NCBI RefSeq assembly: GCF_900163755.1
Contig: NZ_FUKI01000156.1
Location: 1 to 64,000, forward strand
Length of the DNA stretch: 64,000 nucleotides
From: Crenothrix polyspora
GTDB lineage: Bacteria; Pseudomonadota; Gammaproteobacteria; Methylococcales; Methylomonadaceae
Direction of reading: 5' to 3'
In this document: positions 45,228 to 53,485 of the stretch, piece after piece
How the letters are laid out: each line of letters begins with the position of its first letter
Numbering within the stretch: position 1 is the first letter of the stretch
Translations under genes and position numbers: made by a program
Notes under the pieces: generated by a model
The model's database searches: none
What the model was told of the DNA's origin: nothing
The model's input: the letters and a program-made list of their open reading frames with translations, nothing else

Positions 45228-45260
45228 AACTGTCATTTAATCATCATGGAGATTTCGCTT

Positions 45261-45701
45261 ATGAATCGTTTGTTACCTTCATTTATCACCAGCGCTGTTT
45301 TTGTTTTATCTTTTGCCGGGGTAGGCACTGCGTTAGCAGATCCATTTGGTTTAACGGCGAATTGTGCATTACCCAATTATGTTCCTAATAAATGCGGTTT
45401 AACTATTCGACTGAATGATATTGCCACGACTGTAAAAACAATAAAGCAAGTGGTGTTTTCTGTTCAAGTGACGGACAAAAATGGTAAATTTGTGCCTAAT
45501 TCTAAATGGTATCCTGTTTACAATGCCTATAATGACACAGTAAATAATGTGACTTCTTTTGCCGCGTTTTCTACTGCCAACAATATCGCTGTTTCGTGTG
45601 GTAAATCTTACAATATAAAAGCTCACATAACCGGAAGTGCTACACCGGAAGTGTTTAATAAACAAGTGATCGCATGCCCTTCTATTAATAAAGCTCTGTA
45701 A
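45261..45701 (+). CDS. Secreted four-cysteine protein of unknown function, paralogue 1
   Basis: The 146-residue product has a signal peptide (LLPSFITSAVFVLSFAGVGT, cleaved near ALA-DP) and a beta-rich body with four Cys at LTANCALP, NKCGLTI, AVSCGKSY and VIACPS. The next gene encodes a homologue with the same Cys pattern and a near-identical start (MNRLL). I do not recognise the family. The body may be an Ig-like fold with two disulfides. The start at 45261 is chosen because GGAGA lies 9 bp upstream; an ATG at 45246 adds five residues ahead of that site. Confidence 0.7.
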   Translation: MNRLLPSFITSAVFVLSFAGVGTALADPFGLTANCALPNYVPNKCGLTIRLNDIATTVKTIKQVVFSVQVTDKNGKFVPNSKWYPVYNAYNDTVNNVTSFAAFSTANNIAVSCGKSYNIKAHITGSATPEVFNKQVIACPSINKAL

Positions 45702-45797: not shown

Positions 45798-46217
45798 ATG
45801 AATCGTTTATTAAACTCAAGCCTTACTGTCTCTGCTTTTGTTGCAGTGTTTGCTTTTGCAGGTACAGCGTCCGCTGCGGATACTTACGATGTGATGGCGG
45901 AATGCTCAGTATCGCATTATACCGTGCAAGGTAAATGCGGCCTGTCGATGCATCTTAGTGAAGATTATCTCAGCAAAACATCACTTAAAAAGGTGGTTTT
46001 TAAAATAAATGGCAAACCTGTACACATAGGGTACAACGACAAAACACCGTTAGCTCAAGGTAATACCTTTTCAGTGTTTTCTTTAGCAAATTCTATTCCG
46101 GTAACGTGTGGAAAAACATATACCGTTACTGCGTATGTGGTTAAAGCGACAGCAGCGGCAGAAACAAAAGTAGGTGATCCCCAGCTGGTAGTTTGCCCCG
46201 TTAAAGCTGATTTTTAA
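45798..46217 (+). CDS. Secreted four-cysteine protein of unknown function, paralogue 2
   Basis: A 139-residue homologue of the preceding protein with a signal peptide ([19 protein letters not shown]) and Cys at [23 protein letters not shown] and VVCPV. Shared blocks include [35 protein letters not shown] against FSTANNIAVSCGKSYNIKA. It has its own ribosome site (TTGGAG) and a 96-bp gap from paralogue 1, whose sequence resembles the leader of that gene, so the whole unit appears duplicated. Confidence 0.7.
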
Positions 46218-50575: not shown

Positions 50576-50743
50576 ATAATGCAATGATTTGTAGTCATTT
50601 CTATTTTTTAAAATATAAAAAAATACGGCATATGACCTATTTTTAAAATACGTGCAAAAATTTTTGCCTGTTTTCTAAGATACCTGAAAAAACATTTACA
50701 CAGGGCTTGTATTTTTTTATTTTAAATTCAATGTGTTGTGATT

Positions 50744-50783: not shown

Positions 50784-50799
50784 TGGCATGGTTTGTGCT
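50784..50799 (+). promoter_or_regulatory. Probable sigma-54 promoter
   Basis: TGGCATGGTTTGTGCT fits the -24/-12 consensus TGGCACG-N4-TTGC with two mismatches, and the invariant GG and GC are exactly 10 bp apart. It would start transcription near 50811, about 70 bp before the ATG at 50882. Confidence 0.55.
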
Positions 50800-50881: not shown

Positions 50882-51868
50882 ATGAAGCACACAGTAAAAA
50901 AATTAGCCCTTTGTTCATTGGTCGGTTTGTTTGCAAGCCAAGCTTACGCACATACTTCTATTAGAGACCAAGTTGATGAAGGCAAACCCAGCTATAACGC
51001 GTTTAATATTGGCCACGGCTGTGGTGGCGATGCCGGTACTGACACATACCCCGTAATTGGGCAAACCGGATTATTCCCGTTCGGTCAGAATGTTGTCTGG
51101 CGCAGGCTGTCACTTGCCGGCGTTGAGTTATCAAAAACAATTGGTGGTAATGGCGGTATTTTGCCCGATACCGCCACCGGCGGCCCAGGGTCTGGTTTTT
51201 TGAGTTTAGGTGTGGCAGGTTATGACGGGTTTACGTCACCGTATAGCAAAATGCACGAAATTGTCGATGCGTTAGGTAACGTTCATGCGTTGCATTGGTA
51301 TCAAGGTGCTATGAACCCTAAATCAAATGCCTTAACTACTTTTAAAGTTACCGCACCTATGATTACCGATAACTGCGTTAGAAAGCTGTCCATTCGTATG
51401 GCGGCGCTTAATTGGTGTGATGTGCAAAAAAATGCCGTTAATGATATAAAAGGTCCTTATCTGGCACCCAGAGATGCATACAATCGTTTGGTGCCCAAGG
51501 TTATTCAGATTGGTGTTAATAATGGTATACAAACTAATGTAACTCCCGGTAAATATTACACCACAATGCCAAAAGGTAATGGCGACAATAACCGTTATGA
51601 TGCGTGGTTTAAAGATATTGAAGGCGGTAGTGCTAATTTTTCTGATACAGACCTACAGTCTTCTTGGCCCGCTATGGTGGTTAATAACGTAGGGGTAACA
51701 CCAGAGCAAATTAAGGCCTGCCCGGGTGGTGTTCAGGTTGATATGATTGTTGAGCCGCTCGGCGTAGATTTTGACACCTATTTAACCGCCGCCAATATGC
51801 CTGGCCCGTCTTCAAGCATGACAGTCGACAATGGCAAACCATTCCCATTGGGTAAATCAAATTTTTAA
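50882..51868 (+). CDS. Secreted protein with predicted N-terminal histidine, distantly DUF1775/YcnI-like
   Basis: A 328-residue protein with a clear signal peptide (LALCSLVGLFASQAYA) cleaved before His24, so the mature protein should start HTSIRDQV. The following YNAFNIGHGCGG resembles the Y-x-A...HGC-x-G pattern of DUF1775 (YcnI) proteins, which bind copper through an N-terminal His. The rest (HALHWYQGAMNPKSN, VDMIVEPLGVDF) is not familiar to me. An excellent ribosome site (AGGAGG) precedes the ATG. An intrinsic terminator and then a second His-first secreted protein gene follow. Copper binding is a hypothesis. Confidence 0.7.
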   Translation: MKHTVKKLALCSLVGLFASQAYAHTSIRDQVDEGKPSYNAFNIGHGCGGDAGTDTYPVIGQTGLFPFGQNVVWRRLSLAGVELSKTIGGNGGILPDTATGGPGSGFLSLGVAGYDGFTSPYSKMHEIVDALGNVHALHWYQGAMNPKSNALTTFKVTAPMITDNCVRKLSIRMAALNWCDVQKNAVNDIKGPYLAPRDAYNRLVPKVIQIGVNNGIQTNVTPGKYYTTMPKGNGDNNRYDAWFKDIEGGSANFSDTDLQSSWPAMVVNNVGVTPEQIKACPGGVQVDMIVEPLGVDFDTYLTAANMPGPSSSMTVDNGKPFPLGKSNF

Positions 51869-51948
51869 GCTTTAAATTGTAAAGATTAGGACAGTGATAT
51901 AGACAAGGAGGTCTTTTTAACGCGATAGACTTTGGGTGTAACTGCTAT

Positions 51949-51986
51949 TCCAGAAAGTCTGTGAGTAGGCTTTCTGGATTTTTTTT
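51949..51986 (+). terminator. Intrinsic terminator between the two His-first protein genes
   Basis: TCCAGAAAG (51949-51957) pairs perfectly with CTTTCTGGA (51970-51978), followed by eight T residues at 51979-51986. Confidence 0.88.
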
Positions 51987-52101
51987 AACACACACTGAAG
52001 AATGGATTTACGACGTAATAACTAGCGTAAATGGGCTGGGGAATAATATCCCCGTATTGTTACATAGTGTCCGTTATGACTAACGGCGGAAGGATAAAAT
52101 A

Positions 52102-52569
52102 ATGAAAAATAAATTTAAACTGTTGTTGGCGGTGTCTTTAATGGCGGTAACAGGCTTGGCTTCGGCACACAGTATGTCGGGCGGGTTAGTAGCAAAACAA
52201 CTAAAAAAAGGTTCAAAGAAGGTTTTTGTTGCCGCACCGGCTGTAGATATTTATCAGGTTGATTGTGGTGCTGGTACTACTAAGCTGTATTATCGCGTTA
52301 AGACAAGCGCAGTAGCCGTAGCATCAAAAATCAGTATTCAAGGCTTTAAGGGCGGTGCGAGTACATTAAGTACAGACCCTGTTAATACCGATGCTAAGTT
52401 CAGCCCAGCCATTAATTTTGCTAACGGTGAAGGTTCTTATTCGGTGTCAGTGAGCAGACCGGCATCAGCCACTTGGGGATTTTCAGAAAACTATGTTGCC
52501 GAAATGCACTGCCAAGATAAGGGCGGCGCTCATACTGAGACGACTATTACCATGACACAAAACCAGTAG
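52102..52569 (+). CDS. Small secreted protein with predicted N-terminal histidine, unknown family
   Basis: A 155-residue protein whose signal peptide (LLLAVSLMAVTGLASA) should be removed before His23, leaving HSMSGGLVAK at the mature end. Two Cys are present (QVDCGAGTT, EMHCQDKGGAH), the second next to His residues. The rest is beta-rich (YSVSVSRPASATWGFSENY). I do not recognise the family. The leader TAACGGCGGAAGGATAAA gives a ribosome site (GGAAGG). A terminator separates it from the upstream gene, so it has its own promoter. Confidence 0.68.
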   Translation: MKNKFKLLLAVSLMAVTGLASAHSMSGGLVAKQLKKGSKKVFVAAPAVDIYQVDCGAGTTKLYYRVKTSAVAVASKISIQGFKGGASTLSTDPVNTDAKFSPAINFANGEGSYSVSVSRPASATWGFSENYVAEMHCQDKGGAHTETTITMTQNQ

Positions 52570-52833: not shown

Positions 52834-53198
52834 TCATGCTTTATATTGCGTTAGCAGCTGACTGATTAGCTGATGCAGCTCAGGTAAGTCTTCATGGATA
52901 GTTTTCCAAACCAGTTCAAAATCCACTTTAAAATAGCCATGTGCAATACGATTACGCATGGCATACATGAACTCCCAAGGCACTTCGGCGTTAGTTTCCG
53001 CAAATATTGAGTGAAAAGTTTCTATATTATGCGCTGCTTCACCGATGACTTCGAAGTTTCTGACAACTGCATCTTGAGTCTTTTATCATCAAGAAAATCA
53101 ATTTCCAAGCTATCTTCAAGGTAATGATAAATTCGCTCAATAGCTTCAACGATGTGTTCGAGATAATTGGGGATTCGTAAAAGGTCTTTTTTACTCAT
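52834..53198 (-). pseudogene. hepT: HepT-like toxin gene with a -1 frameshift
   Basis: The ATG at 53198 overlaps the mntA stop by 4 bp. The first frame reads MSKKDLLRIPNYLEHIVEAI to FLDDKR, then loses homology. The adjacent frame continues as KTQDAVVRNFEVIGEAAHNI and FMYAMRNRIAHGYF, with the HEPN ribonuclease motif RX4HXY (RNRIAHGY), and ends at 52834. One extra A in the A-run complementary to 53081-53084 would restore FLDDKKTQDAV, the usual HepT sequence. Either a recent deletion or a homopolymer sequencing error. HepT is an RNase toxin controlled by MntA. Confidence 0.8.
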
Positions 53199-53485
53199 AT
53201 TGACTGGGCTTCTTCTAGCACTTGGTTACGAAATTTTTCGGGTAAAGCTCTAGGGGTCAACACATCCACCGTCACATTGAGCAAGAGTGCCACCTTAACC
53301 TGAATTTTGGCAATATCCATCAACGTGGTTTCCGGCGTGGGATCAACCAGCAAATCCAGATCGCTGTCATCGGTGTCATTGCCGTGTAACACAGAACCGA
53401 ACACCCGCACGTTGTTGACGCGATGGCTCAGGGCGATTGCACGGATGGCATCGCGGTGGATTTGCAAGGCTAAAGAGGGGCGCAT
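53195..53485 (-). CDS. mntA: MntA-like nucleotidyltransferase antitoxin
   Basis: A 96-residue minimal nucleotidyltransferase with the complete GSX10DXD signature (GSVLHGNDTDDSDLD) and the third Asp in VDVLTPRAL. MntA antitoxins silence HepT by adding AMP to a tyrosine near its active site. It is directly upstream of and overlapping the frameshifted hepT, the expected operon. Confidence 0.88.
   Translation of the reverse strand: MRPSLALQIHRDAIRAIALSHRVNNVRVFGSVLHGNDTDDSDLDLLVDPTPETTLMDIAKIQVKVALLLNVTVDVLTPRALPEKFRNQVLEEAQSI

Follow-up and report, generated by a model that had tools for sequence, protein, structure and literature searches.

Two adjacent genes in the window (the whole 64,000-nt stretch of DNA that was analysed) encode two unlike exported proteins, here termed P1 and P2, which are probably copper-binding proteins of methanotrophs that aid copper capture or transfer, most likely under copper scarcity. 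The role in copper acquisition is likely because the palindrome and the sigma-54 type promoter-like site before P1 genes also stand before genes of CorA-like copper proteins and DUF3570 genes in the same genome. A wider reading is put forward as tentative and is rather doubtful as a whole: gammaproteobacterial methanotrophs might possess an undescribed sigma-54 copper-starvation regulon, marked by AAGTGTGTCATATGACACACTT, in which two unlike His-first proteins (one of the YcnI fold and one of a new three-His beta-sandwich family), flavinylated DUF3570/redoxin and CorA-type surface proteins would reduce copper, capture it and hand it towards pMMO. The features of the gene pair in the window are:

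50621-50642, + strand: upstream activator-like palindrome AAATACGGCATATGACCTATTT, with 2 mismatches relative to AANTGNGKSATATSMCNCANTT, some 160 nt upstream of the -24 element
50784-50799, + strand: -24/-12 promoter-like site of the sigma-54 type, TGGCATGGTTTGTGCT, 98 nt upstream of the P1 start
50882-51868, + strand: P1, secreted YcnI/DUF1775-like protein of 328 aa, signal peptide 1-23; mature residues H1, H22 (of HGC), C24 and C156 invariant, W219 nearly so
50951-50953, + strand: His codon for predicted mature residue 1 of P1
51949-51978, + strand: terminator-like hairpin with U tract between P1 and P2 (-18.1 kcal/mol, z -3.4)
52102-52569, + strand: P2, secreted beta-sandwich protein of 155 aa, signal peptide 1-22; mature residues H1, H114 and H122 as candidate site, plus C33 and C115
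52168-52170, + strand: His codon for predicted mature residue 1 of P2

P1 and P2 are intact open reading frames with ordinary signal peptides, and signal peptide cleavage, inferred from the A-x-A rule, is predicted at the junctions SQAYA/HTSIRD for P1 and GLASA/HSMSGG for P2. The original prediction that both mature forms begin with histidine was borne out, as the reading frames lie where it had placed them, both junctions are of the A-x-A/H type and the histidine is conserved in homologues. It had also presented the two genes as neighbours, which they are, but they probably form no simple operon in the window because the strong terminator-like hairpin with its U tract intervenes. Two related small secreted proteins, the first of them without a Pfam match, are encoded by adjacent genes elsewhere in the window (45246-45701 and 45798-46217). 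Downstream of the pair, a small nucleotidyltransferase of the toxin-antitoxin type is encoded on the minus strand (53195-53485), the partner gene of which is probably located further along that strand.

The histidine follows A-x-A in 21/21 aligned P1 homologues, down to about 20% identity, and in this alignment of 21 sequences no exchange occurs at Ala23, His24 (mature H1), His45 (H22), Cys47 (C24) or Cys179 (C156), and hardly any at Trp242 (W219). For P2, His1 was found in 32/35 homologues of the first alignment and in 55/71 of a wider set of distinct domains. Because of this conservation across homologues the A-x-A/His junctions are more than chance and, judged by the alignments, His1 of both proteins is under selection. 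The P2 domains were sorted by their His content automatically, with rows that have long tails or odd signal ends assigned by eye. The second His (H136, before the invariant second Cys) is present in 53/55 domains with His1 and in 0/16 without it (Fisher p 5e-14, common descent being ignored), and the third His in 52/55 and 1/16, respectively. His1 and the second His are kept or lost together and therefore behave as one site. Such co-loss is what would be expected of ligands of one metal, and a P2 metal site is proposed from it. The loss was observed in several genomes, often in proteins fused to other domains. P2-like domains without the His residues also stand behind CxxCH-bearing or similar N-terminal segments of the same protein (L064, L028, L122 and L083:6767-7609). 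The HGCGG motif of P1 and the MHCQDKGGAH motif of P2, to which attention had been drawn beforehand, are present at conserved positions (H45/C47 in P1; C137 and H144, together with H136, in P2). Both proteins have candidate second ligands.

The mature form of P1 was modelled by AlphaFold with modest confidence (pLDDT 71). In VIA-align, this model matched the YcnI structures 8um6, 7me6 and 7mek with Z 10.4-10.9 at 2.7-3.0 angstroms over 124-125 residues of 128 and the DUF1775 structure 3esm with Z 10.3; the four best rows were all DUF1775, and the next unrelated fold had Z 6.5. The alignment placed residue 1 of the model on His27 of YcnI, which is a ligand of copper. YcnI emerged in this second look with VIA-align alone, as Foldseek searches with the P1 and P2 models yielded nothing below E 0.001. 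Neither P1 nor P2 had a significant sequence match in Pfam, NCBIfam or PDB, the gathering cut-off of PF07987 (DUF1775) was reached neither by P1 nor by its homologues, and P1 was without any Pfam hit. The link by sequence is weaker than that by fold: in hhalign comparisons with DUF1775 the probability was 92% when the signal peptide of P1 was included and 19% for mature P1, both alignments covering the first segment up to and including HGC. One paralogue in the query genome (L138:9134-10027) was matched by the P1 profile as well as by a DUF1775 alignment, its own score against Pfam DUF1775 being below the cut-off (E 0.0018, 19.1 of 25 bits). Moreover, HGC, a second Cys and a Trp are present in 10/10 aligned proteobacterial DUF1775 proteins, and P1 keeps the same order. 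The proposed resemblance of P1 to YcnI/DUF1775 was thus upheld by the structure match of the model and by the sequence link through the bridging paralogue, and P1 is, as far as the model can be relied on, a remote relative of this family. YcnI binds Cu(II) via His27 and Glu50 near Trp137 and supports growth of Bacillus when copper limits (PMC8424229, PMC12362106), and many proteobacterial members of the family are without Glu50 (PMC8424229). In P1, the His of HGC may replace Glu50 and create a two-His brace; residue order and conservation suggest that Trp219 corresponds to Trp137 of YcnI and that His22 is the second ligand.

Promoter architecture connects P1 with copper genes. A sigma-54 site of the TGGCAY-N6-7-TGCT type (score of at least 20 of 25) was located within 170 nt upstream of 29/29 P1 genes in comparison to 26/445 neighbouring control genes. 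A palindrome core of the AAGTGTGTCATATGACACACTT type lies further upstream of this site in 21/29 P1 genes (shuffles: mean 0.3, maximum 2), and within a fixed span of 550 nt the core was present for 19/29 P1 genes and 21/445 controls. In the query genome, 15 sites of the full palindrome were counted versus 2 for the reversed control pattern. The combination of palindrome and sigma-54 site precedes both P1 genes of this genome, a CorA-like gene (E 1.2e-30) followed by MauG-like genes, further CorA-like genes (sigma-54 site at L143:655; two CorA-like loci in all), two clusters in which DUF3570 is accompanied by DsbD-like and cytochrome genes, and beta-propeller and di-haem peroxidase genes. The palindrome also precedes surface-cytochrome genes, and a gene for a multihaem cytochrome has palindromes upstream and no recognised sigma-54 site. 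An association of P1 and P2 with copper genes is in this way supported by a common promoter architecture. CorA is copper-repressible in Methylomicrobium album and binds Cu(I), its copper site consisting of two His and kynurenine (PMC3912023). Sigma-54 promoters have been predicted for copper-responding gene clusters of Methylococcus (PMC4831470). MEALZ_0810/0811, considered as possible counterparts of P1 or P2 named in copper transcriptome papers, are surface-associated proteins induced by copper limitation. Some members of the regulon, namely haloperoxidase-like, amidohydrolase and DJ-1/PfpI genes, are without an evident copper link, and the regulon signal may therefore be another stress.

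Three palindromes and a sigma-54 site are located upstream of a vanadium haloperoxidase-like gene (L138:633-2042). The palindrome/sigma-54 group on contig C127 of the query genome that contains a CorA-like gene also includes two more secreted proteins predicted to begin with His when mature, an astacin-like protein with the predicted start NAQA/HKIST (L139:4524-5738) and a CxxCH-containing protein with the predicted sequence SVWA/HPVYM...CSDCH (L139:5928-6548). In G019 and G044, which belong to one genus, 45 and 28 palindrome sites were counted versus 3-15 in the other genomes searched, which suggests an expanded regulon. MmoR was considered as the activator of P1 genes and rejected: the palindrome core was found before 0/18 mmoX genes, of which 13/18 have a sigma-54 site. 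The P1 genes therefore probably have a different activator.

The query genome (3.92 Mb, 180 contigs) contains two genes of PF02461 (AmoA/PmoA family) and a soluble methane monooxygenase, as well as a second P1-P2 pair on contig C45 and three further P2 genes. With P1 alone as query, no relative was detected in a scan of genome contigs; an alignment of seven P1 sequences as query returned 16 loci. Relatives of P1 were found in 19/101 genomes and those of P2 in 38/101. When 229 genomes, sampled evenly from the class, were searched, every genome other than the query genome with a P1 match also had PF02461, and P2 gave one further, weak match in a genome without PF02461. Because the matches co-occur with PF02461, the pair is almost restricted to methane oxidisers.

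This distribution, which tracks copper-dependent methane oxidisers, speaks against the explanation that P1 and P2 bind a metal other than copper, such as nickel or zinc, via the N-terminal His, or sequester metal protectively and not for uptake. DUF4198 proteins with an N-terminal His prefer nickel over copper (PMC12537917), and the three-His arrangement proposed for P2 suits several metals. However, P1 has the fold of YcnI, whose characterised member binds Cu(II), and the promoter architecture is common to CorA-like Cu(I)-binding proteins, so that a non-copper or purely protective function is considered unlikely.

In 12 P1 neighbourhoods the pair is located near genes for a redoxin, DUF4266, DUF3570 and ApbE, often together with a gene for a secreted HEAT-repeat protein. 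CopC, CopD and PCuAC were not recognised in the scanned part of the ORFs neighbouring the clustered pairs. The cluster adjoins the pair in most relatives and is absent around the window copy; the pair stands alone in the window, on C45 and in G002, and contig C55 of the query genome carries the full cluster with two P2 genes and without P1. The pair in the window is a detached copy. In one relative, a P2 domain and a P1-like domain are encoded together in a single ORF (L072:8014-9165), by which a joint role of P1 and P2 is supported. Flavinylation of DUF3570 by ApbE has been demonstrated, and the cluster has been described with its function given as uncertain in a paper whose main text does not contain the words copper and methanotroph (PMC8238504). 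The original prediction of an undescribed system stands for P2 and for the sigma-54/palindrome regulon, neither of which was found described in the literature searched, but not for the P1 fold, which is the known copper-binding YcnI fold, nor for the DUF3570/DUF4266/ApbE cluster, described in 2021 (PMC8238504).

These neighbours, along with the DsbD-like genes added in related operons, the P2 domains fused to CxxCH segments, and the multihaem cytochromes and di-haem peroxidases of the regulon, could also indicate that P1 and P2 are histidine-brace copper enzymes or electron carriers that partner the flavinylated DUF3570 system in redox reactions outside the cytoplasm, e.g. oxygen or peroxide chemistry, instead of trafficking copper. 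However, where P2 domains are fused to CxxCH segments, they lack the His residues and, to our knowledge, no catalysis has been demonstrated for YcnI-fold proteins, which leaves an enzymatic or electron-carrying function improbable.

P2 is a separate beta-sandwich family matching no named family in Pfam, NCBIfam, PDB and structure searches. Its confident model (pLDDT 90) is a beta sandwich whose closest structural neighbours (Z 8-10) are pre-peptidase C-terminal, collagen-binding and GOLD domains. The structural neighbours listed include no copper protein, and no similarity emerged in a profile comparison of P2 with DUF1775. A function of P2 in surface adhesion or as a scaffold, with a structural or coincidental N-terminal His and with P1 alone binding metal, would suit these general beta-sandwich neighbours, but it is very improbable, since a purely structural role does not predict that 16/16 surveyed P2 domains without His1 also lack the second His, and nothing is excluded by a fold match that is weak or absent.

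The preferred reading, copper capture and hand-over in the periplasm or at the cell surface when copper is scarce, is based on the fold, the conservation, the promoter sharing and the distribution. P1 would hold Cu(II) in a histidine brace formed by the N-terminal amine, His1 and His22, with Trp219 close by, and His1, His114 and His122 would be the metal ligands of P2. Bound copper may be reduced, or its ligands kept reduced, by the redoxin-DUF4266-DUF3570-ApbE system, the flavin/thiol chemistry thus changing the redox state of copper, which would finally serve pMMO and other cuproproteins. The regulon genes without an evident copper link, the nickel-binding His-first proteins (DUF4198, PMC12537917) and the absence of the redox cluster around the window pair count against a role in copper handling. 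The proposal bears on the copper supply for methane oxidation in methanotrophs that lack methanobactin: next to the known proteins CorA and MopE, P1 and P2 are candidate carriers for the steps behind them, with testable ligands. Moreover, an orphan flavin redox cluster is linked to copper genes, and the palindrome offers a DNA control motif as a starting point for experiments to trace the whole regulon and its activator.

Four known systems can be compared with the pair. In the DUF3570-DUF4266-thioredoxin-ApbE flavinylation clusters (Meheust et al. 2021, PMC8238504) the same four families occur that stand beside P1-P2 in most relatives, whereas P1 and P2 are extra members and the window pair is alone. 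In comparison to YcnI/DUF1775, P1 escapes detection by Pfam, has over twice the length, carries insertions and would have His where Glu50 stands; a signal peptide followed by His, the same fold, the position of His1 on His27 and the conserved order of HGC, second Cys and Trp are common to both. The signal-strapped His1 metalloproteins (DUF4198, DUF6702 and anglerases; PMC12537917) differ in that P2 has no Pfam match to DUF4198 or DUF6702, but they use a mature N-terminal His as metal ligand, as is predicted for P1 and P2, and several of them are beta sandwiches like P2. With regard to CorA and MopE, no sequence similarity of P1 and P2 was found, including no hit to PF18252 (Cu_bind_CorA), and the CorA site is not an N-terminal His (PMC3912023), whereas the arrangement of palindrome and sigma-54 site is common to P1 and CorA-like genes in the query genome, the proteins belong to the same bacterial group and their copper context is likely alike.
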